IMG/VR virus record: IMGVR_UViG_3300018421_007524
Location: 1 to 41,914 of that record
Direction: 5' to 3' (one strand)
Source of the DNA: a virus
Length of the DNA: 41,914 nucleotides
The stretch's first letter is position 1; each line of letters opens with the position of its first letter. A program made the position numbers and the translations under genes. This document shows, one piece after another, positions 22,514 to 41,914 of this stretch. The notes under the pieces are model-generated. The model had not been told where the DNA came from. It saw only the letters and a list, made by a program, of their open reading frames with translations, and did no database searches.

Positions 22514-22867
22514 ATGGATGAAAGACTAAAAAAAGCACTTGAATTTTCTAATTATATGGTTACTCTTAATAACCAAAAGAAAATTCTTATCGAACAATAT
22601 TATCAAAATATTATTTTTTATTTTGCTGGCGGACAATTCACAGTCACCCAAAATTTAATTTGTTTTTGTGCAACCATGTTACAAAAAAATCAAGAAGATT
22701 TAGTACTAATTGATGATAATAAAATTCCTATTTTAATCGAAAATTTAGAAAAATTTTACAATGATATTTTAGACTTATATTTCAATGCAAGTAATAAATT
22801 TCTAAATGAATATAATTTATTAAAGGTTAAAAGATCAACTGGTAAATTAGTAGGAACGGATGTCTAA
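22514..22867 (+). CDS. Small helical protein of unknown function, first gene of accessory operon
   Basis: The product is 117 aa. The start at ATG 22514 is set by AAGGAG at 22499-22504. The predicted character is largely alpha-helical: an N-terminal amphipathic stretch (DERLKKALEFSNYMVTLNNQ), a hydrophobic helix around NIIFYFAGGQFTVTQNLICF that is too polar to call a membrane segment with confidence, and a C-terminal helix ending in a basic tail (LLKVKRSTGKL). There is no known motif. The stop overlaps the next start by 8 bp (ATGTCTAA), so the two are probably translationally coupled. It directly follows the promoter and is the first product of the operon. It could be a regulator, scaffold or carrier, but the sequence does not say. 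Confidence 0.7.
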   Translation: MDERLKKALEFSNYMVTLNNQKKILIEQYYQNIIFYFAGGQFTVTQNLICFCATMLQKNQEDLVLIDDNKIPILIENLEKFYNDILDLYFNASNKFLNEYNLLKVKRSTGKLVGTDV

Positions 22868-23762
22868 AGGTATTTTATTATTTGCTAGAAATAATTCTCA
22901 TGTTGATTATGTAAAACAAGCTTATTTTTTAGCAAAGCAAGCTAAAACACATTTAAATCTTCCTACTAGTATTGTAACTGATAGCATTTTTTACTTAGAA
23001 TGTACTTTTCCAGATGCAAAAAAAGTTTTTGATAATATTATACAAATTGTGTGGGACGAAAAGGATTTAACAGATAGTACAACACTGAGTAAATCTGAAG
23101 ATCATTGCATTAGAACGTATTTTGATGGGGCTATGTCAAAAAGGCGTTTACAGTTTAAAAATGAAACTAGAACTTTAGCATACGATGTATCTCCATACGA
23201 CGAAACACTACTAATAGATACAGATATTTTAATAATTAATGATTTATATAAACATTGTTTTACTCAAGATAATGATTTTTTAATATATGATACAGCATAT
23301 GATTTGGCTAATTTTAGAGATTACTCAGAATTTAAATATTTAAGTGATTGCAGTGTAAAATTTTATTGGGCAACTGTAGTATTTTTTAGGAAAACAAAAA
23401 TAAACAAGATTTTTTTTAATTTACTGCAACATATCCAAGAAAATTGGAATCATTATAGATCAATTTTTCAAATATACAGTTCTATATATAGAAATGATCA
23501 TGCTTTCAGTATTGCTATTCATATTATGAATGGATATACTGCAGGTAATTTTTCCTATCCAATGCCTGGCAAATTATTTTACACTACTGATAAAGATATC
23601 TGCTGGAATATTAACATTAAAAACAAAGAAATATTATTTTTAGTTGAAAAAGAAAATTATCATGGTGAATATACACCTATAATGTGGAAAGATCATAATA
23701 TTCATATTATGAATAAATTTAGCTATAACAGATGTTTATGTGAGATATTAGATGGCAAGTAA
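22860..23762 (+). CDS. GT-A-type glycosyltransferase-like protein
   Basis: The product is 300 aa. The N-terminus (SKGILLFARNNSHVDYVKQA) and a DTD motif at residues 120-122, in the context PYDETLLIDTDILIIND, are typical of nucleotide-sugar-dependent GT-A glycosyltransferases. There the DxD holds the metal and the sugar nucleotide. The C-terminal part is rich in aromatic residues and ends in HNIHIMNKFS. The next gene has the same layout, so the two are probably paralogs. There is no signal peptide or membrane segment, so it should act in the cytoplasm. The start overlaps the previous stop by 8 bp, and the stop overlaps the next start by 11 bp. Donor and acceptor are unknown. The fold assignment is fairly firm, the reaction inferred. 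Confidence 0.78.
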   Translation: MSKGILLFARNNSHVDYVKQAYFLAKQAKTHLNLPTSIVTDSIFYLECTFPDAKKVFDNIIQIVWDEKDLTDSTTLSKSEDHCIRTYFDGAMSKRRLQFKNETRTLAYDVSPYDETLLIDTDILIINDLYKHCFTQDNDFLIYDTAYDLANFRDYSEFKYLSDCSVKFYWATVVFFRKTKINKIFFNLLQHIQENWNHYRSIFQIYSSIYRNDHAFSIAIHIMNGYTAGNFSYPMPGKLFYTTDKDICWNINIKNKEILFLVEKENYHGEYTPIMWKDHNIHIMNKFSYNRCLCEILDGK

Positions 23763-24585
23763 AGGATTTTTATTTTATGCGAAAGGTGAAGAATTTGTTA
23801 AACAAGCAATTCTTTCTGCCATGAGTATTAGAGTTACAAATAAAGATATCTTAATATCTATCATGACAAATGATGATGTTGATCCTAAGTTTAATTCTTT
23901 ATTTGATAATATAATACCTGTACCTTGGGTCGACAACGATAATACATTTTATCAAATTAATAACAGATGGAAAACATATCATGCAACACCTTATGATCAA
24001 ACTATTGTGTTAGACACTGATACTTTAGTTCTTCAAAATATAGATATGTGGTGGAAGTTTTTAAACAATTATGATTTATTCTTTTTAACAAAAGCTTATT
24101 CATATAGAAAAGAAGTTATTACAAGCAATTATTATAGAAAAGCATTTGAAAAAAACAATCTTCCTAACATTTATACAGGATTTCATTTTATTAAAAAATC
24201 AGATTTTAGTCATGAGTTTTTTAAATGGTTAGAGTTAGTGACTCATAACTGGGAGTTATTTTATGGATCTTTTTGCAAAGAATATTATCCAAAATATCCC
24301 AGTTATGACTTATCTGTAGCAATTGTAAACAAAATTTTAAATTGTACAGAACTAACAACAAATTTAAAAACAGACTTATTTGAATTTGTTCATATGAAAC
24401 CTCATGTGCAAGGATGGAAATACCCGGGTAAATGTTGGATTAATCAAGTTGGTTCTTATCTTACTGATGATTTAAATTTATTAATTGGAAATTATAAGCA
24501 AACAGGCGTTTTCCATTATACCGAAAATGATTTTGTTACAGATCAAATATTAAGTAAATATGAAAGATATTTAGGATATGAGTGA
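23752..24585 (+). CDS. GT-A-type glycosyltransferase-like protein, second copy
   Basis: The product is 277 aa. It opens with SKGFLFYAKGEEFVKQAILS, parallel to the upstream protein, and has a DTD motif at residues 88-90 in HATPYDQTIVLDTDTLVLQN. A Trp/Tyr-rich middle (MWWKFLNNYDLFFLTKAYSY) and HMKPHVQGWKYPG near the C-terminus fit a nucleotide-sugar transferase with a C-terminal His that could complete the metal site. It overlaps the preceding gene by 11 bp and the next by 8 bp (ATGAGTGA). It is soluble by sequence. It probably transfers a sugar in the same pathway as its neighbour, and two different linkages are possible. Specificity cannot be read from the sequence. Confidence 0.78.
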   Translation: MASKGFLFYAKGEEFVKQAILSAMSIRVTNKDILISIMTNDDVDPKFNSLFDNIIPVPWVDNDNTFYQINNRWKTYHATPYDQTIVLDTDTLVLQNIDMWWKFLNNYDLFFLTKAYSYRKEVITSNYYRKAFEKNNLPNIYTGFHFIKKSDFSHEFFKWLELVTHNWELFYGSFCKEYYPKYPSYDLSVAIVNKILNCTELTTNLKTDLFEFVHMKPHVQGWKYPGKCWINQVGSYLTDDLNLLIGNYKQTGVFHYTENDFVTDQILSKYERYLGYE

Positions 24586-25138
24586 ACTATTTGTTTGTTA
24601 TGATGATAACGGTGATATTTTAAAAATTACCCCCGAGCAGCCAGATATATCAGAAAAATATATATTAGTTGATCAGGAAGATGTTAAAGTTTTATTAACT
24701 GGAGAAGAATTAATATTTAAATGGATGGTCGGATTTAATTTAAAAACTAAAGTTAATGAATTAATTCCTAAAGGATTGTATGATGAAAGAGATTTTAAAA
24801 TAAACGAGCTTATCTATGAAGTTCCTTTTGGTAATAAAGATGCAGAAATTGTTATTGTTTATGATAAAGATAATACTTGTTGGAAATTTTTAATAAGTTC
24901 AGAGTTAGAAATATTTTTGTATAATAATAATATTTCATTAAATGATTCATTTTTACATTTTAGTGTTTGCGAACACAATAATCCTAACATTCTTTTTAAA
25001 ACTTTAACAGTAAGTTTAGACCAATTAGTAAAAAATCATTATTTTATACTTCCTTTTATCTATGAATGGGAGGCTAATTTAAAAGAGTTTAGTATATACA
25101 CAAATAAAAGGTTTAATACCTATAGTTTTATGAGATAA
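24578..25138 (+). CDS. Unknown protein between glycosyltransferase-like genes
   Basis: The product is 186 aa. The start is ATG 24578 within the 8-bp overlap ATGAGTGA. I do not recognise the family. The protein is acidic and apparently of mixed alpha/beta type: an N-terminal strand-rich segment (ELFVCYDDNGDILKITPEQP), a central EIVIVYDKDNTCWKFLISSE, and a C-terminal ANLKEFSIYTNKRFNTYSF. There is no signal peptide, no membrane segment and no obvious cofactor motif. Four bases separate its stop from the next start. Its tight position among glycosyltransferase-like genes suggests an accessory subunit or a modified substrate. Neither is shown by the sequence. Confidence 0.68.
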   Translation: MSELFVCYDDNGDILKITPEQPDISEKYILVDQEDVKVLLTGEELIFKWMVGFNLKTKVNELIPKGLYDERDFKINELIYEVPFGNKDAEIVIVYDKDNTCWKFLISSELEIFLYNNNISLNDSFLHFSVCEHNNPNILFKTLTVSLDQLVKNHYFILPFIYEWEANLKEFSIYTNKRFNTYSFMR

Positions 25139-25142
25139 TTAA

Positions 25143-26054
25143 ATGGCAGATATAATAAAAATAATAGATTGCGATATAGTTTTTTTGTCGTATGATGAGC
25201 CTAATGCAGAAAAAAATTATACAGATTTAATATCTAAAATTCCTTGGGCAAAAAGAGTTCATGGTGTAAAAGGATCAGATTCGGCGCATAAAGCTTGTGC
25301 AAACATCTCTGATACTGAATATTTTGTTACAGTTGATGCAGATAATATTATTAATCAAGATTTTTTACAAGTAGAAATCGATTTGCAAAAATTAAATCTA
25401 ACTCCTCAGCATGTTTTTAGTTGGTGTGGTAAAATTTATGTTAATAATCTAATGTACGGTAATGGTGGATTAAAATTATGGACAAAGACTTTTGTTAATA
25501 ACATGAAAACACACGAAAATGCTGTATCAACTGATGAAAAAGGGTTAGTAGAGTTTTGTTTTGACGAAAAATATTATCAATTCAACGAAAATTATTCAAT
25601 AAGCTACACAAATTTTACTCCTTATCAAGCATGGAGATCAGGTTTTAGAGAAGGAGTTAAGATGTCATTAGATCAAGGAGCAAAAGTTGTTAATATAAAT
25701 AAGGTTTGGTGGCAAAACTTTGATAGATTAATGATTTGGTGCATGGTAGGAGCAGATGTTGAAAATGGATTATGGACAATATATGGTGCACGGGAGGGTT
25801 TATATAAAACTTTGTGTACAGATTGGAATTATGTAAATGTTAGAGATTTTGATTATTTACAAAAGTTGTGGAACGAAGAATACGAAAGTATACAAGAAAT
25901 AAATTTACTAGATAAAATTAAAGAAACGGGCAGCCATCTTATTGAAGAATTATCAATCCCAATCGCTGAAAACCCGTTAGATAAAGATCAAAGTATTTTT
26001 TTTAAAAAAATGTATAGTAACTCTCCTAGAGTAATTAGGAGAGCTAGTGCTTGA
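25143..26054 (+). CDS. Glycosyltransferase-like protein (GT2-like) with DAD motif
   Basis: The product is 303 aa. DIVFLSYDEPNAEKNY near the N-terminus, followed by GVKGSDSAHKACA and then FVTVDADNIINQDF with the DAD motif at residues 65-67, matches the opening half of GT2-like GT-A enzymes. A conserved centre, YGNGGLKLW, and TPYQAWRSGFREGVKMS are shared with the C-terminal domain of the 628-aa protein at 33759, which has YGYGGVKLLPKK and DPFSTWKSAFRECAKLA. The two therefore belong to one family. It is soluble, with no transmembrane helix. The last 8 bp overlap the GTG start of the next gene. The transferase role is inferred from the fold motifs, and the acceptor is unknown. Confidence 0.75.
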   Translation: MADIIKIIDCDIVFLSYDEPNAEKNYTDLISKIPWAKRVHGVKGSDSAHKACANISDTEYFVTVDADNIINQDFLQVEIDLQKLNLTPQHVFSWCGKIYVNNLMYGNGGLKLWTKTFVNNMKTHENAVSTDEKGLVEFCFDEKYYQFNENYSISYTNFTPYQAWRSGFREGVKMSLDQGAKVVNINKVWWQNFDRLMIWCMVGADVENGLWTIYGAREGLYKTLCTDWNYVNVRDFDYLQKLWNEEYESIQEINLLDKIKETGSHLIEELSIPIAENPLDKDQSIFFKKMYSNSPRVIRRASA

Positions 26055-27465
26055 AGATATTAAAGGTGATAAAGTTAACCTTTACAAAGGCAAATACAAC
26101 AGTGAGTATTTTGAAAAAACAAAAAATATTTTAGATATTTTAAATAATGTAAGCCCAAGTTTTTGTTTAGCAAAATGGTATAACGTAAGTTTACACTTAC
26201 CTACGGGTAAAACTCATAGTTGTTATCATCCTCCGTCGCATAATATTCCTTTAGAAGAATTGAATAAAAATCCCTCTGCTCTTCATAATACAGCATACAA
26301 AAAAGAACAAAGAAAATTAATGTTAAAAGGTAAGCGACCAAATGAATGTTCTTTTTGTTGGGAAATCGAAGATCAAGGAAATATAAGTGATAGAGCATAT
26401 CGAAGTAAAGACGTATATGAGCCTAATTTAATAGATGATATTCTAAGTAAAGGCCCAACTGATAATCCTAACCCTAGATATTTAGAAGTTAATTTTAACC
26501 AAGCTTGCAATTTTAAATGTTCTTATTGTAGTCCGCATTTATCTACAGAATGGCATAAAGAAGTGCTAGAACATGGGGCTTACAAATTAATTGATTCAAA
26601 GCACAATGATCCTAGTTGGGTAGAAAGCTTAAAAATAGATAATTCTCCAGACAATCCATAAACACTTGCGTTTTGGCAATGGTTTCCAAATATATATAAT
26701 GATTTAAAAACTTTTAGGATGACTGGCGGAGAACCTTTAATGGATAAGAATACTTTTAAAGTGTTTGAATTTATAAAAAAACATCCGAAAGCCGATTTAA
26801 ATTTAAGTATTACCAGTAACTGTTGTCCACCAGGTCAGCAATGGTCAAAATTTTTACAAAGCTTAAAATATATTACAGAAAATAATTGTATAGATCATTT
26901 TATGTTGTTTTGTAGTTTAGACTCTTGGGGTAAACAAGCAGAATATATAAGGAATGGATTAGATTTTTCAGTTTTGCATAAAAATATTGTTGATTATCTA
27001 AAAACAGGAAAAAAGCATAGCCTTACATTTATTATTACTGCAAATATTTTATCTTTGCCTAACTGGTTAAATTTTATAAAAGAAATACTAAATTTACGGA
27101 TAGAATTAAATGATGATAGACAATTAATATGGTTTGACGTTCCTATGTTACATCATCCGTTATGGTTATCTATGAAATTAGCTCCTAGTTTTTTGCTTGA
27201 AGAATTGTCAAAAAGTATTAATTTTATGGAACAAAACCCTGAGACAAATAATAACAGATTTAAAGGATTTAAAGATTTTGAAGTTGATAAAATCAGAAGG
27301 CTTTACAACTGGGCAAAAGAGCCACTAAATATAGAACAAGAAAAAATAGCAAAGCAAAATTTTTATTTATTTTTTGAACAACATGATAATAGAAGAAATA
27401 CAGATATATTTTCTACGTTTCCTGAATTAAAAGAGTTTATTGAAGAATGCAAAAGGTTGATTTAA
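26047..27465 (+). pseudogene. Radical SAM protein with N-terminal twitch-like domain, interrupted by an in-frame ochre codon
   Basis: The start is GTG 26047 with AGGAGAG just upstream. The reading frame is 472 codons with TAA at 26659-26661 (codon 205). Both sides of the stop align with the next gene. The N-terminal cysteine domain has C40, C59 and the pair C101/C104 (CSFCW), and the radical SAM cluster motif is C154-x3-C158-x2-C161. After the stop the frame continues FWQWFP, then TGGEPLM, the SAM-binding region. In the paralog at 27447 the equivalent position reads NPYIEAFW, against NP*TLAFW here, so the stop replaces a Tyr codon by one base. Unless it is read through or is a sequencing error, the protein ends at 204 aa without its SAM site. 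A restart at ATG 26719 would lack the cluster cysteines. The enzyme function is therefore probably lost. Confidence 0.8.
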
Positions 27466-28814
27466 TAAAAAATACAAGAGATAGACTGAATAAAATTGGT
27501 AATGGTTTTTGTGCAATGAAGTGGCTTCATCAAACATTATATTTGCATACAGGTGATAATCATAGTTGTTATCATCCAAGACCACATCATATTAGCATAG
27601 ATGAAATAAAGGACAATCCTAGTGCGTTGCATAACACGTCTTGGAAAAAAGAGCAACGTAAAAAAATGCTAGAAGGTGAAAGGCCGGAAGAGTGTTATTA
27701 TTGTTGGAATATAGAAAATTTAGGTGGAGATCATATTAGCGATAGAATGATACATAGTTCAAGTGATTATGCAGTCGATGAAATAGAAAAGCTAGGAAAG
27801 ATGCCATGGGATGCCGATATAAATCCAAAATATCTTGAGGTAAGTTTTGGAAATGGATGTAATTATAGATGTGGTTACTGTTGTCCTCAAGCAAGCACGT
27901 TATGGATGGAAGAAATAGAAAAATATGGTAATTATGATTTAACTTATAACCAATATGGGATCGAATTTTTAGATTCAGGTAGATATTATCGACCTAAAGA
28001 TCATAATCCTTATATAGAAGCGTTTTGGAAATGGTGGCCTGAATTAAGAAAAGACCTTAGTACGCTAAGAATAACAGGAGGAGAGCCCCTAATGAATCCA
28101 GGTGCAATGCAATTTTTTGATTTGTTAGAAAAAGAACCAGCGCCGCAGTTAGATATAAGTCTTAATAGTAATTTAGGGGTAAGTAAACAAAAAATTAATA
28201 GATTGTACACAAGAATACAAAGCTTATTAGATAATAAAAAAATACGTTCTTTTTCCTTGTATACTAGTATTGAAGGATGGGGCGAGCAAGCAGAGTATAT
28301 GAGGACAGGTTTAAAAACAGAACATTGGGAAAATAATTTAAAAGAAGCTATTCGTAGAGATTTTAAAGTAGGTTTAATGTGTACTTTTAATGTTTTATGT
28401 GTTGCAACATTTAAGAATTTTTTAGAAAAAGTTATAGATTGGAGATCTAATTTAGGAATGAAAATTCCTATGCACCAGTTGCAATTTGATACGCCTTATT
28501 TAAAAGAACCACCACATTGGATGTTAAATATTTTGCCTAATGATTTTTTACAATCAAACATGGATGCTAATTTAGATTTTATAAAAGAAAATAAAAAATG
28601 GTTTACAGATGTAGAGTTTGAGAAAATGCGAAGAGTGCGAGATTATGCATTTGCTAACCCAGTGTCTGAGGAATTGATAAAAAGAGGTAGGAGAGATTTT
28701 TATGTATTTTTTACAGAAAATGATAAAAGATTAGGTACAAATTTACAAAAAACTTTTCCTGAATATACAGATTTTTATCTTTTATGTGAAAAGGTATATA
28801 AGAATTATGAGTGA
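27447..28814 (+). CDS. Radical SAM enzyme with N-terminal twitch-like cysteine domain
   Basis: The product is 455 aa. The N-terminal cysteine domain has C22, C41 and the pair C83/C86 in EECYYCW, a pattern of N-terminal twitch radical SAM proteins that probably holds an extra iron-sulfur cluster. The radical SAM core follows: C138-x3-C142-x2-C145 binds the 4Fe-4S cluster, and TGGEP at 210-214 contacts S-adenosylmethionine. It is closely related to the interrupted gene just upstream (shared SCYHP, NPSALHNT, KKEQRK), so the pair is a tandem duplication. The ATG lies 19 bp before the upstream stop. The product generates a 5'-deoxyadenosyl radical, but the substrate is unknown. The surrounding glycosyltransferases suggest a sugar or a glycosylated target. 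Confidence 0.87.
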   Translation: MQKVDLIKNTRDRLNKIGNGFCAMKWLHQTLYLHTGDNHSCYHPRPHHISIDEIKDNPSALHNTSWKKEQRKKMLEGERPEECYYCWNIENLGGDHISDRMIHSSSDYAVDEIEKLGKMPWDADINPKYLEVSFGNGCNYRCGYCCPQASTLWMEEIEKYGNYDLTYNQYGIEFLDSGRYYRPKDHNPYIEAFWKWWPELRKDLSTLRITGGEPLMNPGAMQFFDLLEKEPAPQLDISLNSNLGVSKQKINRLYTRIQSLLDNKKIRSFSLYTSIEGWGEQAEYMRTGLKTEHWENNLKEAIRRDFKVGLMCTFNVLCVATFKNFLEKVIDWRSNLGMKIPMHQLQFDTPYLKEPPHWMLNILPNDFLQSNMDANLDFIKENKKWFTDVEFEKMRRVRDYAFANPVSEELIKRGRRDFYVFFTENDKRLGTNLQKTFPEYTDFYLLCEKVYKNYE

Positions 28815-33744: not shown

Positions 33745-33750
33745 TATAAT
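33745..33750 (+). promoter_or_regulatory. Possible -10 box TATAAT before the second operon arm
   Basis: A consensus TATAAT lies 8 bp before ATG 33759. No convincing -35 box is seen 16-18 bp upstream, where the sequence is TTATGTA-like. A transcript from here would begin almost at the ATG, and no clear ribosome-binding site precedes that codon, so a leaderless message is possible. In such A+T-rich DNA a chance match is quite likely. Confidence 0.3.
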
Positions 33751-33758
33751 GAGTTTTT

Positions 33759-35645
33759 ATGTACGATATCTTTTTTATTGGTCAAGATAAAATATTTAAA
33801 ATTTACAAGAAGTATTTTTTAACATTAAAAAAAGCGTCTAGCATTTCAGAAGCAAAAGATAAATCAGTTACAAAGTTTTTTTGGATTTTATGGGACAATT
33901 TAATCATTAAAGATGATGTCATTTTAGATTTTAAAATAAATGAACATGATGAAAAATATATTCATGTCTTTAAAAACGGAAAATATTTTGATGGTGTAAT
34001 TTTATTAAGTAAAGATACTTTGTTGTCAGAGAAAGAATGCAATTATAGATTTTTTGTAAACAAAAAAGAAATTGATATTGTTGCAAGCGTGCCTAAAGAT
34101 TATGAATCATATACTTGTAAAACGTATGATGATTATTTACGAGCAAGAGAAATTTGTACAACAGATTTTTTTTACATAATATGGGATAATTTAGATGTAA
34201 AATTTAATTTTAATTATCAGGTTCCGTACTACGAAAAAGATTTAGTTCATGTTTTTAAAAATAAAGATTATTTTGATGGAATAATAATTGTACATAAAGA
34301 TATTTTGTTATCCAAAAAAGAATTTGAATATAGATTTTTTGCAAATAAAAAAGAAATTGATATTGTTGCAAGCTTGCCTAAGAAATATGATAAATTTGTT
34401 TGTAATACTTATTATGATTTCTTAGAAGCAAAGCAGAGTTGTAAAACAGATTTTTTTTATCTAATTAACTCTGATGTAATAGTAAATATAGAGTTAGAAC
34501 AACAAGTTCCTTATTACGAAAAGGATTTAGTACATGTTTTTAAACATGGAGAGTATTATGATGGTATATCAATTTGTCATAAAGATTCAAGAATAACTGA
34601 GAGAGAGTTTAATTACAGATTTTATTTAAAAAATAAAAAAATAGAAATATCAGCATCTTTTCCAAAACAGTATGATATAATTACATATAAAAACTATAAT
34701 GATTTAATGCATAAAAGAGATAAAGTTACTACAGATTTTTATTATGCTATATCAGAAGATTTAGATGTTAAATTAAATTTTTCTTATCAAATTCCATATA
34801 ATGAAAAAGATTTAGTTCATATTTTTAAAAATGAAAAATATTTTGACGGAGTAATTTGTTTAAACAAAAATAAGCAAATTTATGAAAAAGAGTTAGAATA
34901 TAAATTTTTTGCAAACAAAAAAGAAATTAATTTTAACATAAGTTCTCCTAAAAAATTTGATATTGTTTACATATCATATTTTGAACTAAATGCAGATGAA
35001 AATTTTCAAATGTTAGAAGAAAGATTTAAAGATTATGTAATTCACAGGGTTGAAAATGTTAAAGGAATCCATAATGCTCATATTGCTGCTGCAAAAAAAG
35101 TTAATACAAATATGTTTTGGGTAGTAGATGCTGATGCTCATATTGTGCATGACTTTGATTTTTCTTATCAAGTTGCTAAATGGGATCAAGATGCTGTTCA
35201 TGTTTGGAGAAGTTCAAATCCTATAAATGGTTTGGTATATGGATACGGTGGTGTTAAATTATTACCAAAGAAATTAACTATAAATATGGATCGTAATTCT
35301 ACAGATATGACCACAAGTATTAGTAGTAAGTTTAAATTAGTAGATGCTATATCAAATATAACAGTATTTAATACAGACCCATTTAGTACATGGAAAAGTG
35401 CATTTAGAGAATGTGCAAAACTTGCAAGTAAAGTAATTGATCGGCAAGAAAATGAGGAGTCAGAAGAAAGATTAAACATTTGGTGTTCTGACATAGGGTT
35501 AGACAAAAAGTATGGTAATTATGCCAAAAGTGGTGCGTTACTAGGAAGAGAATTTGGAAGCAAATTTAAAACAGACAAAGACAAATTGAAGTTAATAAAT
35601 GATTTTCAATGGTTAAATGAGCAATTTTCAAAGTATACCGTTTGA
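33759..35645 (+). CDS. Repeat-containing GT2-like protein with degenerate N-terminal copies
   Basis: The product is 628 aa. The C-terminal domain (about 399-628) is homologous to the 303-aa protein at 25143: FDIVYISYFELNADENF, NVKGIHNAH, FWVVDADAH with DAD at 457-459, then YGYGGVKLLPKK and STWKSAFRECAKLA. The N-terminal part is built of near-regular units of 95 aa starting at residues 114, 209 and 304, plus a more divergent first unit (about 40-113). Each unit reads T-D-F-F-Y...Q.PY.EKDLVHVFK...FDG and aligns with the TNMFWVV...SYQVAKWDQDAVHVW segment of the catalytic domain, but has lost the DxD. The protein thus looks like one active GT domain preceded by four inactive copies. No ribosome-binding site is evident before the ATG. 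Confidence 0.78.
   Translation: MYDIFFIGQDKIFKIYKKYFLTLKKASSISEAKDKSVTKFFWILWDNLIIKDDVILDFKINEHDEKYIHVFKNGKYFDGVILLSKDTLLSEKECNYRFFVNKKEIDIVASVPKDYESYTCKTYDDYLRAREICTTDFFYIIWDNLDVKFNFNYQVPYYEKDLVHVFKNKDYFDGIIIVHKDILLSKKEFEYRFFANKKEIDIVASLPKKYDKFVCNTYYDFLEAKQSCKTDFFYLINSDVIVNIELEQQVPYYEKDLVHVFKHGEYYDGISICHKDSRITEREFNYRFYLKNKKIEISASFPKQYDIITYKNYNDLMHKRDKVTTDFYYAISEDLDVKLNFSYQIPYNEKDLVHIFKNEKYFDGVICLNKNKQIYEKELEYKFFANKKEINFNISSPKKFDIVYISYFELNADENFQMLEERFKDYVIHRVENVKGIHNAHIAAAKKVNTNMFWVVDADAHIVHDFDFSYQVAKWDQDAVHVWRSSNPINGLVYGYGGVKLLPKKLTINMDRNSTDMTTSISSKFKLVDAISNITVFNTDPFSTWKSAFRECAKLASKVIDRQENEESEERLNIWCSDIGLDKKYGNYAKSGALLGREFGSKFKTDKDKLKLINDFQWLNEQFSKYTV
34098..34952 (+). repeat. Three in-frame 285-bp coding repeats
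   Basis: Units at 34098-34382, 34383-34667 and 34668-34952 encode 95 residues each with no length change. The preceding partial unit ends at 34097. A 27-bp identical stretch at 34062-34088 and 34347-34373 is exactly 285 bp apart, which points to relatively recent duplication of the first two units. The last two units are more diverged. Confidence 0.8.
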
Positions 35646-36597
35646 TAATATTATCAAACTTGGGCAATCTACATTATTAGAAACAGATTTATTTACAGTG
35701 TCTTGGATTTTAGGCAGATTTTGTAATTATAATTGTTCATATTGTTGGCCTTACGCTAGAAGTGATATTGTAGACTACCGGGAGCTAAAAATTTATATTG
35801 ATGCAATTACTAACATAAAAAAACAAGCAAATGAAAATGGTTTTAATAATTTCCATTTTAGTTTTAGTGGAGGAGAGCCTACTGCTTACAAAAATTTACT
35901 CAAGTTAATAGATTTTTATCAGTCTGATTCAACTCCTAACTATCAAAGTTTACACTTAACTACTAATTTATCTCCTGCAATAAAATGGTGGAATAAATTT
36001 GTAAAAAATACAAACAACTTGCATAGAATTAGCATAACGGCTAGTTTTCATGCAGAATTTGCTAATGAAGATGAATTTGCTGATAAATGTTTGTATCTTA
36101 TAGATAATAATATATTTGTTACAATAAATCAAGTAATGGTTCCAGAACAATTTGATTCCCTTTACGAAAGATGTGAAAGATTTTTTAAATTAGGGATAAA
36201 TGTAACTTTAAAGCCGCAATCAAATACTACAGCAACACAGATTGTTTCTGGATACACTGCTGATAATATTAAAAAAATGCAAACAGGATTTGTTCAACAA
36301 TGGAAAGGCTTAGAAATATCACAATTACATTTATATGATAAAGAAAATAAAAAATATTTGTTAGATCAAGCAGAACGGTTAAATACTTTTGGATTTAATA
36401 AATTTAAAGGTTGGAAATGTAATGCAGGTTATCAAGGAATTATAATCAAAAATACCGAAGTTAAAAGAAGTTATAGTTGCAAAGAACAAAATCTCGGCGA
36501 TATTGTAACAGGATTTAAAATAAATAATCGGCCAAATATATGTATTACAGATACTTGTGTAAGTAGTGCAGATAGTAAAATACCTAAAGAAAAATAA
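35617..36597 (+). CDS. Radical SAM enzyme
   Basis: The product is 326 aa. The cluster motif is C36-x3-C40-x2-C43 (RFCNYNCSYC), followed by FSFSGGEPTAYKN for SAM binding and HLTTNLS. Late cysteines (WKCNAGYQG, SYSCKEQ, ICITDTCV) are spaced like an auxiliary cluster site, perhaps a reduced SPASM or twitch domain. It lacks the N-terminal cysteine domain of the genes at 27447, 28807 and 31236. The start lies 29 bp inside the previous gene, and the stop shares one base with the next ATG (TAATG), so coupling is expected on both sides. The substrate is unknown. It opens the part of the operon with the SGNH-like, methyltransferase and peroxidase genes. Confidence 0.85.
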   Translation: MSNFQSIPFDNIIKLGQSTLLETDLFTVSWILGRFCNYNCSYCWPYARSDIVDYRELKIYIDAITNIKKQANENGFNNFHFSFSGGEPTAYKNLLKLIDFYQSDSTPNYQSLHLTTNLSPAIKWWNKFVKNTNNLHRISITASFHAEFANEDEFADKCLYLIDNNIFVTINQVMVPEQFDSLYERCERFFKLGINVTLKPQSNTTATQIVSGYTADNIKKMQTGFVQQWKGLEISQLHLYDKENKKYLLDQAERLNTFGFNKFKGWKCNAGYQGIIIKNTEVKRSYSCKEQNLGDIVTGFKINNRPNICITDTCVSSADSKIPKEK

Positions 36598-37394
36598 TGT
36601 TAACTAACAAACTTAAATTTCCTCTTATAGGACAGAAAACAAATAAGGATATATATACACCAAGACGCAACGAGCGAAAAATGGAAGGCATGAAAGATTT
36701 GTTAATAGTAGGTGACAGTTTTTGTTTATATAGAGAGAATGAGGATCATTGGCCATTTATAGTTGCTAAACAAGTTGCCCTAGATGAAGGAATAAAAGTC
36801 TCCAATTATAAAGAACTTATTCCAAGAGGTACGGGTTTACCAGGTAGAGCCTGGTGGGCTGTTAGAGAGCATTTATTAAAAGAGATAAAAATACATACTC
36901 CTAAAATTCTTATTATCTGTCATACCGATTTAAATCGATTAGCAAATGAAAAGAACTTGCCATTATCGCCTATAGAAGTTATAGATTATCTTAATACACG
37001 AAAGCAACATATTTACAAAGATGTTGATTTGAATTGGCTGCAAGCAGCAGGAAACTATTATAAGTATCTTTTTTCACCAGAATATCATCAATGGGCTGCT
37101 ATAAGATGGTATCTAGAATTAGATAACATATTGAAAACAACACCACGTATCGAAAAAATAATACATATCCATTGTTTTAATGCAGGTAGTGATTTTATTT
37201 GGCAGCATGGAATGACTATAAGAGATTCTTTGTGGCATTACTGCGAACAAGATCCTAAAATTGAAGTTAGTAATCATTTATCAATACAAGATAATAGATT
37301 GTTTGCAAGATTTATTTGTGATTTATTAAGCCCTTTTTCTTATCGCGACGGACATAATGTTTCAATGCGGTATCTTAGACCCTACCAGAAATAA
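36597..37394 (+). CDS. SGNH/GDSL hydrolase-like protein, copy 1
   Basis: The product is 265 aa from ATG 36597, which overlaps the previous stop by one base. Internal ATGs at 36681 and 36690 would better match the length of its paralog, so the first 28-31 residues may not be translated. LLIVGDSFCLYR holds the candidate nucleophile S41 in a GDS motif. PRGTGLPGRAWW and ICHTDLNRL follow where the Gly and Asn blocks of SGNH enzymes lie, and SNHLSIQDNRLFAR near the end may supply the His. The gene at 38467 repeats this pattern (VGDSFCAYR, GAGWW, HTDPNRL, NHFTISKNKRFAE). SGNH enzymes act as esterases or acyltransferases on glycans and lipids. The exact catalytic triad is not certain. Confidence 0.65.
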   Translation: MLTNKLKFPLIGQKTNKDIYTPRRNERKMEGMKDLLIVGDSFCLYRENEDHWPFIVAKQVALDEGIKVSNYKELIPRGTGLPGRAWWAVREHLLKEIKIHTPKILIICHTDLNRLANEKNLPLSPIEVIDYLNTRKQHIYKDVDLNWLQAAGNYYKYLFSPEYHQWAAIRWYLELDNILKTTPRIEKIIHIHCFNAGSDFIWQHGMTIRDSLWHYCEQDPKIEVSNHLSIQDNRLFARFICDLLSPFSYRDGHNVSMRYLRPYQK

Positions 37395-37999
37395 TGCAAA
37401 TCAAGATAGAAGATATATTATTTTGGATGGATGCTATTAGACAAAGCGATGATTGCTATAGAACTTTAGAATCTTTTTGGAAAGGACAAATTCGTAGTAA
37501 GATTTGGTTAATTGAAAATTTAAAGAAATATTGTAATAATACTCCACAAAATATTGTAATTTATGGCGGTTGGTATGGAGTTTTATCGTCTTTAATATTT
37601 AATAGTGACATAAATGTTAATAAGATTATAAGTGTAGATATTGATCCAGGTTGTAAAGATATAGCTACTTTAATGAATAAAAATTATGAAATAGAAGGTA
37701 GATTTGAAGCTGTAACAGCAGACATGGCTGTTTGCAATTATCCTGCAGATATTGTAATTAATACAAGTTGTGAACATATTAAACAAGATACTTACAATAC
37801 TTGGCTTAATTTGATAAGTAGTTCGTCTTTGATTGTTTTGCAAAGTAATAATTTTTTTAGTTTGGAAGAACACATAAGATGCTCTAAATCATTAAATGAA
37901 TTTGATAAAATATCTAACATATCAACTTTACTTAAAGATGAACTAGAAACAGAAAAATATACAAGATATATGATAATTGGTAAAAAAAATGTCTTTTGA
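37394..37999 (+). CDS. Class I SAM-dependent methyltransferase-like protein
   Basis: The product is 201 aa, and its start shares one base with the previous stop (TAATG). NIVIYGGWYGVLSSLIF is a motif I-like glycine loop, IISVDIDP is the motif II acidic strand end that would hold the ribose of SAM, and VTADMAV with DIVINTSCEHI follow as motifs III and IV. The small size and lack of extra domains fit a compact methyltransferase on a small molecule. It could alternatively be a non-catalytic Rossmann protein. It sits between an SGNH-like gene and a peroxidase-like gene, and the next start is 11 bp inside its end. No target-recognition domain of a DNA methylase is present. Confidence 0.7.
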   Translation: MQIKIEDILFWMDAIRQSDDCYRTLESFWKGQIRSKIWLIENLKKYCNNTPQNIVIYGGWYGVLSSLIFNSDINVNKIISVDIDPGCKDIATLMNKNYEIEGRFEAVTADMAVCNYPADIVINTSCEHIKQDTYNTWLNLISSSSLIVLQSNNFFSLEEHIRCSKSLNEFDKISNISTLLKDELETEKYTRYMIIGKKNVF

Positions 38000-38465
38000 A
38001 ACTTTTAAAAAAAATACATGGCAAGATAATAAAATTTTTGATACAGATATACCAAAATGTTTTGAAAAATACAATTTTTCGAATATATTGCTAGTAAATA
38101 CTGCAAGTAAGTGCGGGTTTACAAGACAATATGCTGATTTAGAAGCTTTGCATAATAATTACAAACAAAAAGATCTTTTAATAATAGCCCAGCCATCTAG
38201 TAATTTTAATAATCAAGAATTTGAAAATGATAGAGATATACAAGAGTTTTGTAAAACAACTTATAACATAACTTTTGAGATTTTGCCTAAGAAAAATGTA
38301 ATTGGATCTAATATTTCAGAATATTATCAGGAGATTTTTAATATTGTAAAAATTTCTCCTAAATGGAATTTCCATAAGTTTTTAATTAGGAAAAATGAAA
38401 ATAAAATTTATAGCTTTAACCATTTTACAGAAATATCAGAAATAGAAAAAATCTTAGAAAAATAA
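37989..38465 (+). CDS. Glutathione peroxidase-like thiol peroxidase
   Basis: The product is 158 aa from ATG 37989. A TTG four codons upstream is in frame but less likely. Family marks are VNTASKCGFTRQY, with peroxidatic C42, the segment AQPSSNFNNQEFEND, and the late KWNFHKFLI with Trp126-Asn127 of the catalytic set. In the usual form the second segment reads PSNQF or PCNQF. Here it is PSSNF, so the conserved Gln of the tetrad seems replaced by N72. C88 (EFCKT) is at the place where a resolving Cys is found in many thioredoxin-dependent members. It would reduce hydroperoxides in the infected cell. A phage copy inside a radical SAM operon is unusual, and protection of iron-sulfur enzymes is a possible reason. 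Confidence 0.82.
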   Translation: MSFETFKKNTWQDNKIFDTDIPKCFEKYNFSNILLVNTASKCGFTRQYADLEALHNNYKQKDLLIIAQPSSNFNNQEFENDRDIQEFCKTTYNITFEILPKKNVIGSNISEYYQEIFNIVKISPKWNFHKFLIRKNENKIYSFNHFTEISEIEKILEK

Positions 38466-38466
38466 T

Positions 38467-39129
38467 ATGAATAAAAACATATGTATTGTAGGCGACAGTT
38501 TTTGTGCTTATAGGAAAACAGAAAGACATTGGCCTTATTATTTAACAAAATTACTTTTCCCAGATGATAATGATCATGTACCTTTGGGCAATGGATTTTC
38601 AGGTGCAGGGTGGTGGTCTACAAGAAAGCAGTTAATTGACTGTTTAAATAACTACACTCCTAGTATTTTAATAATTATACATACTGATCCTAATAGATTA
38701 TGGAGTGATGAAAACTATCCTTTAAACAGTATGTCAACGTACGATGAGACTAAAAAATTTGCAAATAATATACCTCTAGGAGTATGGAATGCCACAAAAG
38801 ATTACTACAAACATTTATATTTTACTCCTTGGTGCGAATGGGCTGTAACACAATGGTATATAGAATTAGACGAAATAATTTCATCATATAAAACAATAGA
38901 AAAAGTTATACATTTTTATAGTTTTAAATATCCAACTAATAAAAAATTTCATACAGGCATCACAGTGTCCGAGGCATTATTTCAATTTGCCGATGACCAT
39001 CTTATAGGAGAAAATCAAATAGTGGAAAATCATTTTACTATATCAAAGAATAAACGGTTTGCTGAAAAAATTAAACTTTTACTCACAAATAAGTATGCAA
39101 CAAAAAAAGTAAGTGGTTTTCGATTATGA
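38467..39129 (+). CDS. SGNH/GDSL hydrolase-like protein, copy 2
   Basis: The product is 220 aa, starting one base after the previous stop. ICIVGDSFCAYR carries the candidate nucleophile S11. GNGFSGAGWW, IIHTDPNRLW, WYIELDEIISSYKTIEKVIHF and ENHFTISKNKRFAEKI align along the whole length with the protein at 36597, so the two are paralogs separated by two genes. It has no signal peptide and therefore acts in the cytoplasm unless carried in the virion. The probable role is ester formation or cleavage on the pathway product. The Asp of the triad is not obvious. Its stop overlaps the next ATG by 4 bp (ATGA). Confidence 0.65.
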   Translation: MNKNICIVGDSFCAYRKTERHWPYYLTKLLFPDDNDHVPLGNGFSGAGWWSTRKQLIDCLNNYTPSILIIIHTDPNRLWSDENYPLNSMSTYDETKKFANNIPLGVWNATKDYYKHLYFTPWCEWAVTQWYIELDEIISSYKTIEKVIHFYSFKYPTNKKFHTGITVSEALFQFADDHLIGENQIVENHFTISKNKRFAEKIKLLLTNKYATKKVSGFRL

Positions 39130-40667
39130 ATAAAATTATTTTTTTCTCTTTAACTGGTAAAAGATGGGAAAGAAATATTTGGTCTCATAGAGTGGCTACT
39201 TTTTTACGTACACAAGATTGGGATGCAGAAGTTGTTGATTTCACCTCATTTTGGCAAGAAGAGCAGTTACAGGCATTTGTAAAATCTAGAGTAAACAATA
39301 ATGTAGTAGCATTTGTATTTGCAACTTCATTTTTAAATCCTTATTCTGTTCATTTGAATCAATTTTTGTCTTGGTTAAAAACTACGTATCCAAACATCCC
39401 TATAGTAGTCGGTGGACAAAATGCACTTGTTACTTCTGCTGAACCTGTAGATTTTTGGATAGATAGTTATGGTGAAAATGCTCTGCTAAATTTATGCAGA
39501 TTTTTAATTGGAACAAAAACTACTCCGTTATTATTTGACACAAGAATAAAAGATAAAAAAGTTATAAGAGGCTTGCATGCTTATCCAAGTGCGCCATTAG
39601 AAAGTTATTTGATTGATTATGAAAAAAGAGATTTTTTAAAAGAATATGAGTGTCCGCAAGTAGAAACATCTAGAGGGTGTATGTTTCAATGCTCTTATTG
39701 TAATTTTCCAATATTAGGACAGGCGAAAGATGTAAGCATAAGTGCAGATGAATTTCAATTACAATTAAAATTGGGATACGACAAATGGGGTATTAAAAAT
39801 TGGAGATTTATAGATGAAACTTTTAATGATAGGCCTGAAAAAATAATAAAATATGCTGATGTAGTTGAAAAATTAAGTTTTACTCCTTGGTTTACAGGAT
39901 TTGCTAGAGGTGATTTAGTCGTTTTGCATAAGAAATATTGGGATGATTATTTAAGATTAGGCTTTTTAGGCCATTCTATGGGCATTGAAACATTTAGTAG
40001 TCCTGCTGGTAAATTAATTAGGAAAGGTATAGATCCTGATAGGTTAAAACAGGGGCTCTTAGACTTTCAAACATATACTGATAAGTATGCTCCTAGAAGG
40101 TATAGAGGACAAATAAATTTAATTTGTGGCTTGCCCTTAGAAACTGAAGAATCTTGGTATAACACATTAGAATGGCTTAATAGTAATTGGTTAAGACAAA
40201 GTTCAAGTGCATGGATTTTAGAAATATCCGAAGCAGGAATTGATCTTAGTAATGATAGTACATTTACAAGAGATTTAAAACACGCCGGAATAAAACAAAT
40301 GGAATCGAGTAGAGCTAATCCTGGATATGATGTTACTAGGAATGAAAAAGGACAAATTGTTTTCAAGAGTATTATAGGCGGCGGTGTAGGAACAACAAGG
40401 CTTGATAATATTGTTATTTGGGAACATAATGAAATGAATTGGTATAGAGCGCAAGAATTAGTAAAAGAATTTTATGATAAGAATAAAGGATTTAAAGGCA
40501 AACTTGCATGTAACCCTATACTTAGTGATAGATTATTTGTATACTATAAAACTACGGAATATGAAAGCATTTATGATAAATTAATAACAAAAATTGATAC
40601 GGCAGATGAAATTTTTATCAATTTTGTAAATGATTATATTGAAAATAAATTAAACTGGAAAGAATAA
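39126..40667 (+). CDS. Radical SAM enzyme with N-terminal B12-binding-type domain
   Basis: The product is 513 aa. Residues about 1-130 have the Rossmann-like pattern of cobalamin-binding radical SAM proteins: WSHRVATFLRTQDWDAEVVD, then IPIVVGGQNALV and VDFWIDSYGENALLNL. The radical SAM motif is C185-x3-C189-x2-C192 (SRGCMFQCSYC). RFIDETFN and GHSMGIETFS follow in positions usual for the class. A His that would bind cobalt from below is not obvious, so B12 dependence is inferred from the fold pattern only. Members of this class often methylate unreactive carbons or phosphinates. It overlaps the previous gene by 4 bp and the next by 1 bp. Confidence 0.82.
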   Translation: MNKIIFFSLTGKRWERNIWSHRVATFLRTQDWDAEVVDFTSFWQEEQLQAFVKSRVNNNVVAFVFATSFLNPYSVHLNQFLSWLKTTYPNIPIVVGGQNALVTSAEPVDFWIDSYGENALLNLCRFLIGTKTTPLLFDTRIKDKKVIRGLHAYPSAPLESYLIDYEKRDFLKEYECPQVETSRGCMFQCSYCNFPILGQAKDVSISADEFQLQLKLGYDKWGIKNWRFIDETFNDRPEKIIKYADVVEKLSFTPWFTGFARGDLVVLHKKYWDDYLRLGFLGHSMGIETFSSPAGKLIRKGIDPDRLKQGLLDFQTYTDKYAPRRYRGQINLICGLPLETEESWYNTLEWLNSNWLRQSSSAWILEISEAGIDLSNDSTFTRDLKHAGIKQMESSRANPGYDVTRNEKGQIVFKSIIGGGVGTTRLDNIVIWEHNEMNWYRAQELVKEFYDKNKGFKGKLACNPILSDRLFVYYKTTEYESIYDKLITKIDTADEIFINFVNDYIENKLNWKE

Positions 40668-41773
40668 TGTTTTCTTATGATAAATTAAAAATTGTAGAAT
40701 TAGAAATTACAAATAAATGTCAAGCTGCATGTCCGATGTGTCCACGGAATATTCATGGAGGAATAGAAAATAAAGAATTAAAATTGAATGATTGGTCTTT
40801 TAATGATTTTAAAGATATATTTACTAAAGATGTTGTAAATAAAATAGAAAATTTTACGTTTTGTGGTAATTTTGGAGATCCGTTGCTTAATACTGAATTA
40901 CTAGAAATTTTAGAATATATAAAAGAAAATAATCCCAGTACTTATGTTCATATTCATACAAACGGTAGTTTAAGAAATATTACTTGGTGGAAAAATTTAA
41001 TTTTATATTTACCTTATAATCATGATGTAACTTTCGCATTAGACGGCTTAGCTGATACAAATCATTTATATAGAGTAGATACTGATTTTAATAAAATAAT
41101 AGAAAATGCAAAGGCTTTTATAGCCTCAGGAGGTAATGCAAATTGGCAATTTATACTTTTTAAACACAATCAACATCAAATTGAACAAGCAGAATTGTTG
41201 TCAAAAAAAATTGGTTTTAAAAAATTTGTTTTAAAAAACACAAGAAGATTTACTACTAATAAATTTCCAGTGCTAGACAGGAAAGGTAATATTTCTCATT
41301 ATCTTGAACCTAATACTATTAATCCTATTCCTATTGTTACAAAAGATAATTTATTGTCTACAAAATTATTTTGGTCTACAATGCAAGAGTTGGATTGTTT
41401 TCCTATAAACACTAAAAGTATATTCATTGACGCTAATTTTACTGTTTTTCCGTGTTGCATATTAGCCAGCTGGGTATATACTAGTTTTGATGATAATATT
41501 TTTAAAAAATACAAAATTTATAACGAAAATACATCAGTAAATATTATAGGTCAAGAAATTAAAGACGAAGTGTTTGAATTAATAGAAAGTTTAGGAGGAT
41601 TTGATTTAATAAATTGTAAAAAAATGTCTTTAAAAAGTATAATCTCGTCTGAGACTTGGCAAAAATTATGGCACAATAAATGGAATTCAACAGGTATTAA
41701 ATCATGTAGTTTAATGTGCAATAAAAAAAGTCCTTTTATATCTTTAGAGGAACAAAAAGTAAAAAATGTTTAA
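40667..41773 (+). CDS. Radical SAM enzyme with C-terminal SPASM-like cysteines
   Basis: The product is 368 aa. The cluster motif is C18-x3-C22-x2-C25 (NKCQAACPMCPRN). CGNFGDP replaces GGEP as in the gene at 30014, and LADTNHLYR..TDFNKIIENA with FKHN.HQ is shared with it. C-terminal cysteines (DCFPIN, FPCCILAS, NCKKM, SCSLMC) suggest an auxiliary-cluster domain. The ATG shares one base with the previous stop, and the next gene begins 8 bp before its end with ATGTTTAA, the same junction as at 30014. The next gene repeats its N-terminus almost exactly (CPMCPRNIHGG), so this is the first of a tandem pair. The substrate is unknown. Confidence 0.87.
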   Translation: MFSYDKLKIVELEITNKCQAACPMCPRNIHGGIENKELKLNDWSFNDFKDIFTKDVVNKIENFTFCGNFGDPLLNTELLEILEYIKENNPSTYVHIHTNGSLRNITWWKNLILYLPYNHDVTFALDGLADTNHLYRVDTDFNKIIENAKAFIASGGNANWQFILFKHNQHQIEQAELLSKKIGFKKFVLKNTRRFTTNKFPVLDRKGNISHYLEPNTINPIPIVTKDNLLSTKLFWSTMQELDCFPINTKSIFIDANFTVFPCCILASWVYTSFDDNIFKKYKIYNENTSVNIIGQEIKDEVFELIESLGGFDLINCKKMSLKSIISSETWQKLWHNKWNSTGIKSCSLMCNKKSPFISLEEQKVKNV

Positions 41774-41914
41774 ATTTGCAGAATTAAAAAGTATACATAT
41801 TGAAATTTCAAATAATTGCCAAGCATCTTGCCCTATGTGTCCACGGAATATTCATGGAGGATTACCTAATAATAATATTAAAATACAAAATTGGACATTA
41901 TCTGAGTTTAAGAA
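41766..41914 (+). CDS. Radical SAM enzyme, N-terminal fragment (runs off window)
   Basis: The frame is open from ATG 41766 to the right edge, giving 49 complete codons. It begins MFKFAELKSIHIEIS and has the cluster motif NNCQASCPMCPRN followed by IHGG. This closely matches the start of the preceding gene, so it is a tandem paralog. Only the first part is in the window, and nothing can be said about its C-terminal domain. It shows that the radical SAM cluster extends further to the right. Confidence 0.82.
   Translation, partial: MFKFAELKSIHIEISNNCQASCPMCPRNIHGGLPNNNIKIQNWTLSEFK

Follow-up and report, generated by a model that had tools for sequence, protein, structure and literature searches.

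According to the available sections of the published descriptions, the Campylobacter phages CP220 and CPt10 encode 11 and 12 radical S-adenosylmethionine (SAM) proteins, respectively (PMC2853527), and radical SAM (rSAM) genes also occur in further Campylobacter phages (PMC12398825; PMC3322345) and in lake and Baltic viruses (PMC7678222; PMC9301287). In the same kind of excerpts, large phage rSAM sets are called highly unusual and are offered at most a general metabolic role (PMC2853527; PMC12390700). Here we analyse a linear contig of 41,914 bases from a large aquatic phage (IMG/VR record IMGVR_UViG_3300018421_007524; "the window" denotes this whole stretch), in which a giant open reading frame (ORF; 2-15400), a small tail-region gene and fibre-type genes are followed by an rSAM-rich cassette that runs from position 22514 to the contig end. 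Judged by sequence comparison, the cassette carries a selected and recurrent set of predicted rSAM enzymes (twitch, SPASM and cobalamin-type fold), together with a methyltransferase-fold protein, that is found in many phages. Our searches, confined to open-access literature, found precedents for such rSAM density but no description of this conserved block, its pathway or its product.

A first-pass annotation, made from the sequence alone, had counted nine rSAM genes in the cassette. Between 26047 and 41914 we recovered seven complete rSAM genes, one with an in-frame stop and one cut by the contig end; they are listed here with the methyltransferase-fold protein, and genes are named by their first coordinate.

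26047..27465, + strand: twitch-domain rSAM gene, broken by an in-frame TAA ending at 26661
27447..28814, + strand: twitch-domain rSAM (N_Twi_rSAM; NF033640, 297.7 bits)
28786..30021, + strand: twitch-domain rSAM (N_Twi_rSAM; NF033640, 274.4 bits; SPASM over cut-off)
30014..31246, + strand: rSAM with a C-terminal SPASM domain (profile matches)
31221..32426, + strand: twitch-domain rSAM (N_Twi_rSAM; NF033640, 263.5 bits)
35617..36597, + strand: rSAM2, a short rSAM at the core of the conserved block (Radical_SAM match; relatives)
37394..37999, + strand: predicted protein with a class I SAM-methyltransferase fold, regularly found with 35617-like genes (structure model)
39126..40667, + strand: cobalamin-type rSAM by fold (Radical_SAM match; structure model)
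40667..41773, + strand: SPASM-like rSAM related to 30014 (Radical_SAM match)
41766..41914, + strand: SPASM-like rSAM truncated by the contig end (CxxxCxxC; phage relatives)

A search of the record with the Pfam Radical_SAM profile (PF04055) gave eight matches, seven of them over the curated cut-off (27447, 28786, 30014, 31221, 35617, 39126 and 40667); 30014 passed only with its frame neighbours counted (alone it scores 27.4 of 29.5 bits), and its SPASM domain was over the cut-off. Two starts given earlier, 28807 and 31236, lie 21 and 15 bases from those found here (28786 and 31221). The CxxxCxxC motif was present in all eight matched ORFs and in the ninth fragment; it occurs in 8 of the 21 predicted proteins of the region, whereas 200 shuffles of their residues gave 0.07 such proteins on average and never more than 2. 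Genes 27447, 28786 and 31221, as well as 26047 when read through, exceed the 170-bit cut-off of N_Twi_rSAM (NF033640), a family that is named by its domain and whose description states no reaction, whereas 30014, 35617 and 40667 do not reach it. Gene 26047 itself stays under the Radical_SAM cut-off; its frame is split by the TAA and continues to 27465, and with X in place of the stop the product matches N_Twi_rSAM nearly end to end (316.5 bits). In sibling contigs the same gene is one open frame of 476 codons in one case and two pieces in another, and the stop is put down to strain variation or assembly error. The fragment at 41766 encodes 49 residues that include CxxxCxxC; their identity to SPASM-type rSAM sequences in related phages is 65-76%. 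The core of the earlier observation holds, with 26047 broken and below cut-off in this contig. Nine is probably a lower bound, because in related phages the block extends beyond the point at which this contig ends.

Viral contigs were scanned with an alignment of 35617, which gave at least 600 stretches; relatives of 35617 were encoded in 573 of those listed, and the best 80 loci were kept. The same scan with an alignment of 39126 gave 240 stretches with 204 relatives, from which again the best 80 loci were kept. ORFs of these loci were clustered into families (fam numbers), and co-occurrence was counted in 79 of the 80 rSAM2 loci (L056 is the window's own phage) and in 76 of the 80 loci with a 39126-like gene (B12-rSAM loci; L011-L014 had already been fetched and were left out). 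The flank limits used below were chosen after seeing the lists, and near-identical contigs are included (the 134 rSAM2 sequences comprise 112 distinct ones, the 88 B12-rSAM sequences 71), such that the counts are not of independent events. In all 32 rSAM2 loci flanked by over 3 kb at both ends, a methyltransferase gene lay within 5 kb, and SPASM rSAM, twitch rSAM and glycosyltransferase (GT)-like genes were found in 30, 26 and 21 of them. For B12-rSAM loci the flank required was over 5 kb at both ends; of the 41 that qualified, fam3, fam4, fam5, fam8 and fam9 were each present in all, followed by fam1 (40), fam10 (38), fam0 and fam12 (37 each) and fam13 (19). In loci of at least 15 kb the median number of rSAM genes was 9 (3-12, 45 loci) or 6.5 (4-12, 26 loci), and a whole-record Pfam search of two longer records, G002 and G003, returned 12 rSAM matches each. 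A common gene order is GT-like, rSAM2 (35617-like), methyltransferase (37394-like), SPASM rSAM, twitch rSAM and rSAM7, then a divergent group of rSAM4, Twi5 and QueC-like genes, an oxygenase and the B12-rSAM (39126-like), and finally kinase-like genes, oxygenase genes and HMPTM-type rSAM genes; genes are also gained, lost or moved relative to this order. Median ratios of nonsynonymous to synonymous substitution (dN/dS) were 0.04-0.12 in 14 families (10 to 25 pairs each), which indicates purifying selection. A phage collection searched with 35617 and 39126 gave no match at E 1e-5.

The first-pass annotation had raised the concern that the structural genes and the cassette might be joined artificially. 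Three other contigs match the window at 99.78-99.86% (L051 with L052, which are pieces of one; L053; L054); the first two span the tail-cassette junction and the third covers only 34054-41914. Divergent phages hold the same arrangement. L095 has fibre genes and, behind them, relatives of 21544, 22514, 22860 and 23752, a short gene, and relatives of 25143 and 33759, after which come a SPASM rSAM gene, 35617, 37394 and a further SPASM rSAM gene, the ordered relatives being 25-63% identical to those of the window. The 186-kb record G002 has a relative of the giant gene, a 15407-like gene (61%), a 19994-like gene (45%), a 21544-like gene (profile E 4e-31) and, after these, relatives of 22514, 22860 and 23752 with a short gene behind them; it shares with the window the order GT-like, 35617, 37394, 39126, 40667 at 40-63% identity. 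L357, L358, L359, L360 and L361 keep the order of L095 and G002 (L357 and L358 are near-identical), and in all seven of these phages the 21544-like gene lies directly upstream of the 22514-like gene. The 22514-like gene was present in seven of seven hand-picked contigs; upstream sequence was partial in two of the seven queried, of which L363 gave a weak 21544-like match and L362 gave none. An artificial join is ruled out by the sibling contigs and by the synteny in divergent phages, and the island is real rather than an assembly artefact. Co-occurrence in related phages (methyltransferase in 32/32 rSAM2 loci, five families in 41/41 B12-rSAM loci), purifying selection, sibling contigs and synteny all bear out the earlier proposal of a dedicated multi-enzyme route, and we consider a dedicated pathway very probable.

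A scan of 84,980 prokaryotic species with the 35617 alignment, using exact peptide patterns that reach close relatives only, found eight rSAM2 relatives, all in metagenome-assembled genomes of Bdellovibrionota. In three loci (L215, L216 and L217) rSAM2, SPASM rSAM, twitch rSAM and methyltransferase genes are adjacent and point in one direction, and seven of the eight seed genomes have the methyltransferase. Among 290 sampled Bdellovibrionota genomes, the methyltransferase was found in 17/17 with a strong rSAM2 match (E <1e-40, a limit chosen after seeing the lists) versus 10/273 others (Fisher p 6.7e-21; 1.8e-14 without six seeds). Six more genomes have weak rSAM2 matches (E about 1e-22 to 1e-24), one of them with the methyltransferase; at an rSAM2 limit of E 1e-20 the numbers become 18/23 versus 9/267. 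The 19 bacterial rSAM2 loci contain SPASM rSAM (16), twitch rSAM (16), methyltransferase (9) and GT-like genes (9). A recent transfer from the sampled Bdellovibrionota was rejected, as a quick-method rSAM2 tree (34 phage and 18 bacterial rows) parts phage from bacterial rows by a single change, with low branch support (79 and 0). Beside the bacterial core, ORFs at L215:10823-11275 and L216:4723-5562 show, by eye, tandem repeats of about 30 residues.

One bacterial locus contains more than the enzymes. On a Bdellovibrionota chromosome (L269:6361-18813), a twitch rSAM gene, a GT-like gene on the other strand and rSAM2 are followed by a 21544-like protein, whose 28% identity to 21544 extends over 241 residues (pairwise E 6e-18). 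The locus continues with relatives of 22514, 22860 and 23752, a short gene, a further GT-like gene and a second twitch-type rSAM gene. The upstream neighbours are housekeeping-like by eye (RNase HII, TrmD, PheT), and at this locus no tail gene was seen besides the 21544-like protein.

Structure models were obtained for two of the core proteins. The model of 39126 (mean pLDDT 83.8) has an N-terminal Rossmann domain and an rSAM barrel, as in solved cobalamin-dependent rSAM enzymes, and reaches Z 18.9-19.9 with TsrM, OxsB, CysS and AprD4 (381-430 residues aligned), best with TsrM (Z 19.9, root-mean-square deviation 4.4, 430 aligned) and OxsB (Z 19.7). With TokK included, the likeness of fold extends over most of its length (Z 15.9-19.9), although sequence identity is only 10-16%. 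By its model, 39126 looks like a cobalamin-type rSAM enzyme. The model of 37394 (pLDDT 95.4) adopts a class I SAM-methyltransferase fold, with Z of about 16-17.4 to many members, whereas its sequence has no match in Pfam, PHROG or the PDB; the methyltransferase label given earlier is accordingly upheld by fold and not by sequence family. The structure singles out no substrate class, as nicotianamine synthase tops the Foldseek list and NodS ties with many others by VIA-align.

The remaining genes of the cassette are as follows.

22514..22867, + strand: small conserved cassette protein, also in L095, G002 and bacterial L269
22860..23762, + strand: GT8-like protein (label by eye; conserved order; no Pfam match)
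23752..24585, + strand: GT8-like protein (label by eye; conserved order; no Pfam match)
24578..25138, + strand: small cassette protein (no PHROG match; relative in L362)
25143..26054, + strand: GT-A-like protein (VDAD(N) motif; labelled by eye), with relatives among phages and at 9/19 bacterial loci
32420..33055, + strand: 2-oxoglutarate (2OG)/Fe(II) oxygenase-like protein (HxD...H by eye; no family match)
33044..33694, - strand: short-chain dehydrogenase/reductase (SDR)-like protein (label by eye; no family match)
33759..35645, + strand: GT-A-like protein, C-terminal third like 25143
36597..37394, + strand: SGNH-like protein (GDSF motif by eye; no Pfam match; fam79, same family as 38467)
37977..38465, + strand: glutathione peroxidase (PF00255, E 1.4e-24)
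38467..39129, + strand: SGNH-like protein (GDSF motif by eye; no GDSL/SGNH match)

In total the cassette has 21 ORFs, of which only 33044 is on the - strand, and 18 of the 20 neighbour pairs overlap or lie at most 10 bases apart. The PF00255 match (E 1.4e-24) confirms the glutathione peroxidase named in the first-pass annotation. Its four GT-like genes fared less well: 33759 falls just below the cut-off of Glycos_transf_2 (E 1.9e-4, 21.9 of 23.3 bits) and the other three have no GT match, 25143 having none to a GT family in Pfam or the PDB and the GT-like family having no PDB match. The SDR, 2OG-like and two SGNH-like labels likewise found no family match and stand as motifs read by eye. By eye, the N-terminal part of 33759 consists of several degenerate repeats of one unit, with the full GT-A-like pattern only in the last third.

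Fuller relatives add several oxygenase-like genes to this set. Related clusters contain fam22 (Asp/Asn hydroxylase) and fam25 (TauD), over cut-off for PF05118 and PF02668, together with AMP-binding enzymes, an HMPTM zinc-ribbon rSAM (fam15) and a QueC-like PP-loop protein (fam13, e.g. L142:8033-8764), for which one of two members tested was over the Pfam cut-off and no NCBIfam QueC match was found. HxD...H columns are conserved to at least 95% in fam8, fam10, fam12, fam14 and fam22; the bare pattern is weak evidence, since residue shuffles yield it in 27/78 (fam8) and 35/74 (fam12). Against the PDB, fam12 (oxygenase-like) gave no convincing match, fam16 (PLP-enzyme-like by eye) none and fam17 only a weak protein-kinase match. 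The related cluster of G003 encodes a tryptophan halogenase (L049:17943-19532; PF04820, E 1.2e-85), and in phage flanks of 11 loci a 72-residue protein (fam40, e.g. L153:2256-2474) resembles, by eye, translation initiation factor IF-1.

Upstream of the cassette lie the tail-region genes.

2..15400, + strand: giant tail-region ORF that runs off the contig start; relative in G002
15407..16033, + strand: small tail-region protein with jumbo-phage homologues
16037..18052, + strand: tail fibre or collar-type protein (PHROGs tail families; homologue in L360)
18056..19978, + strand: fibre-type virion protein, homologues upstream of the cassette in L357-L361
19994..21511, + strand: fibre-type virion protein, homologues in L095, G002 and L357-L361
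21544..22455, + strand: fibre-type protein with an RxFFNxGGxIR-like motif, conserved cassette neighbour and candidate acceptor (synteny)

The first third of the giant ORF is about 28% identical to jumbo-phage proteins (PA5oct-type, Atu_ph07), and the 15407 protein is 55% identical to that of Sinorhizobium phage Phosso and 51% to that of Agrobacterium phage Atu_ph07. Because of these resemblances we assign the window to a jumbo-phage lineage and not, as the first-pass annotation had framed it, to marine T4-like phages such as cyanophages; its structural genes match Phosso, Atu_ph07, CBB (Pectobacterium) and PA5oct. The 21544 protein has no PHROG match, and a viral scan with it returned three loci, all 99-100% identical.

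Taken together, these data lead us to favour, tentatively, a phage-borne conserved multi-enzyme tailoring pathway that acts on the adjacent fibre-type protein. In such a pathway the GT-like enzymes would make or transfer a sugar-type group, C-H bonds of that group or of the acceptor would be changed by rSAM and 2OG enzymes (dehydrogenation, epimerisation, hydroxylation), and the cobalamin-type rSAM and SAM methyltransferase would supply methyl groups. The acceptor would most likely be the adjacent 21544 protein, and the product an armoured or receptor-altering fibre made during infection. A 21544-like acceptor is preferred because this gene is the first neighbour of the cassette in the tail-linked phages read up to it and travels with it in one bacterium; in cultured Phosso and Atu_ph07, moreover, other rSAM genes occupy this slot next to a protein with a cysteine-rich tail. 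Taken as a claim of its own, it is a possibility we hold with some doubt. The first-pass annotation had left a choice between a modified glycan on the host surface or tail fibres, a small molecule and a modified peptide; the conserved virion-type neighbour, which was not part of its evidence, strengthens the virion-protein option.

Several observations weigh against this interpretation. The GT assignments are weak, with no GT profile over cut-off and no GT match for 22860, 23752 and 25143, and a ThyX-type flank replaces the GT-like and twitch genes in 19 of the 49 rSAM2 loci with more than 5 kb upstream. MiaB and RimO score nearly as high against the 39126 model (Z 17.3-18.1), and its Pfam B12-binding domain is below cut-off (16.2 of 32.1 bits). 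The relative of 39126 in G003 is separate from the other core genes. In bacteria, the most distant full-length seed (G012, 41% in rSAM2, outside the 290-genome sample) has no methyltransferase match, the 21544-like protein accompanies only 1 of 19 loci, and the methyltransferase match in the genome of L269 is on another contig and covers 61 residues. Finally, the 21544-like proteins show no obvious modification motif, and among 4054 ORFs their profile matches none of the proteins with cysteine-rich tails described below.

The strongest alternative is that the enzymes act on sugars and make or alter a host surface glycan (lipopolysaccharide or capsule) during infection, for example against superinfection. 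GT-like genes lie within 5 kb in 21/32 phage and 9/19 bacterial rSAM2 loci, the core of L215 adjoins epimerase-, AsnB-, GT2- and acyltransferase-like genes (by eye), and AprD4, an rSAM sugar enzyme, is among the closest folds of 39126; moreover, host O-chain modification has been proposed for the GTs of pelagimyophage host-recognition clusters in the accessible part of PMC7029224. Profiles do not confirm the GT families, however, and no nucleotide-sugar pathway gene was recognised in the window, and we regard this alternative as possible but rather unlikely. Decoration of one or the other, the phage's fibre protein or a sugar coat, is probable overall. A diffusible small molecule, made by a phage-borne cluster of the secondary-metabolite kind, appears unlikely. 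It would fit the resemblance of 39126 to TsrM, OxsB, CysS and TokK and the tryptophan halogenase (L049), AMP-binding enzymes, QueC-like gene and HMPTM-type rSAM genes added by relatives, but no carrier-protein or assembly-line gene was recognised, and the halogenase and AMP-binding genes are absent from the window and occur in one or two of the loci examined each.

A loose set of auxiliary metabolic genes that boosts host metabolism, a role that the available text of PMC2853527 suggests for the rSAM genes of CP220 (11) and CPt10 (12), is very unlikely here, as near-constant order and co-occurrence across divergent phages fit one pathway better. Maturation by the rSAM enzymes of a small cassette-encoded peptide, in the manner of ribosomally synthesized and post-translationally modified peptides, is likewise very unlikely. 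The twitch and SPASM rSAM proteins match many peptide maturase models, all far under cut-offs, and a slot in related phages has proteins with cysteine-rich tails beside rSAM genes. Yet of the 1425 intervals from one core gene to the next, 1278 have a length of zero or less and 25 reach at least 60 bases, and a small ORF in the gaps between core families is shared by at most three loci, which are identical in sequence. A locally encoded precursor, the modified-peptide candidate of the earlier note, was thereby rejected, whereas a distant one is possible; as the block has no room for a peptide, the acceptor would have to be sought in a glycan, a small molecule or a protein whose gene lies outside it. 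A role in hypermodifying phage DNA or tRNA, to which the QueC-like gene of related clusters and the side-by-side QueC-like and rSAM genes of KVP40 might point, is highly improbable, since the QueC-like family is found in only 19/41 full B12-rSAM loci with weak members and no QueE, TGT or base hydroxymethylase was recognised in the window.

In the cultured phages Phosso and Atu_ph07, the slot that corresponds to the cassette holds other rSAM genes beside a protein with a cysteine-rich C-terminal tail. It is conceivable, if doubtful, that this is a modular slot behind the fibre genes of jumbo phages, in which swappable rSAM cassettes rebuild the neighbouring fibre-tip protein, with Bdellovibrionota keeping a chromosomal version. 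The targets would then be 21544-like proteins here and the Cys-tail proteins in Phosso-type phages, and the groups added could be methyl, hydroxyl, sugar or cross-link. Kinship between 21544 and the Phosso Cys-tail protein was rejected, as direct comparison shows no similarity, and a viral scan with the latter found no relative.

The Cys-tail proteins are an observation in their own right. Phage proteins with CHxSCHxSCHxSRGRR-like tails were seen in L276-L348 (e.g. L276:10631-11203), at L270:16330-17250 and at L272:15062-15952, and the cysteine-rich tail was also read in Phosso and Atu_ph07. The pattern was found in 73 stretches, inside an ORF in 40 and not in 33; in 38 of the 40 ORFs it lies within 40 residues of the C-terminus. 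An rSAM-like ORF is present in the stretch for 37 of the 40, in 30 of these at less than 1.2 kb centre to centre. One of the associated rSAM proteins is SPASM-type, nearest to the ranthipeptide maturase PapB (far below cut-off), and has relatives in the Burkholderia phages FLC6, FLC8 and SURPRISE13 and in a Pseudomonas phage. These pairs may represent an undescribed system of rSAM-modified phage proteins. Separately, L271:1176-1769 (KVP40.0254) has a Ser/Thr-rich repeat tail near a QueC-like gene and two rSAM genes, possibly a small version of an rSAM-decorated protein.

The rSAM set thus resolves into a conserved block that recurs, is under selection and has a near-constant core. It has a counterpart in Bdellovibrionota, and a candidate acceptor can be named, which makes the question testable. 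If the pathway acts on virion proteins, host recognition by phages would involve rSAM enzymes; with a glycan or metabolite as the product, phages would be carriers of large biosynthetic clusters in their own right. Should the modular slot be real, phage receptor binding would rest on a code of post-translational radical chemistry.

How, then, does the window compare with described phages? CP220 and CPt10 share with it an exchangeable cluster (12 and 10 genes, five rSAM each, in the available part of PMC2853527), and NDP-sugar-transferase-type genes adjoin the rSAM cluster of CP220. In contrast, 40667 matches a CP220 rSAM protein at 33% over only 48%, 35617 has no match in the phage collection, and the annotation shown for the Campylobacter phages contains an amidinotransferase-type gene of its own and no methyltransferase/B12-rSAM block. 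The host recognition cluster of pelagimyophages, as described in the accessible part of PMC7029224, is a hypervariable island that contains GTs and rSAM cassettes and adjoins a giant gene of the VrlC type; in the window a giant ORF and fibre genes precede the cassette, and the structural genes resemble jumbo phages instead of T4-like pelagimyophages. The Pelagibacter phage Mosig has a methyltransferase 29.5% identical to 37394, but lacks relatives of 35617 and 39126 and carries other enzymes (aminotransferases, nitroreductases). A similar density is seen in the T4-like TARA_ERS488813_N000010 (12 rSAM genes, PMC5332604) and in Aeromonas phage 332-Vera (eight rSAM genes in a structural cluster, PMC12390700), in 332-Vera among structural genes as here, the available sections of both papers proposing no single pathway. 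Phages rich in rSAM genes are therefore a known kind, and the locus is in that respect partly known; what is new is its gene content, its cellular counterpart and a testable acceptor.

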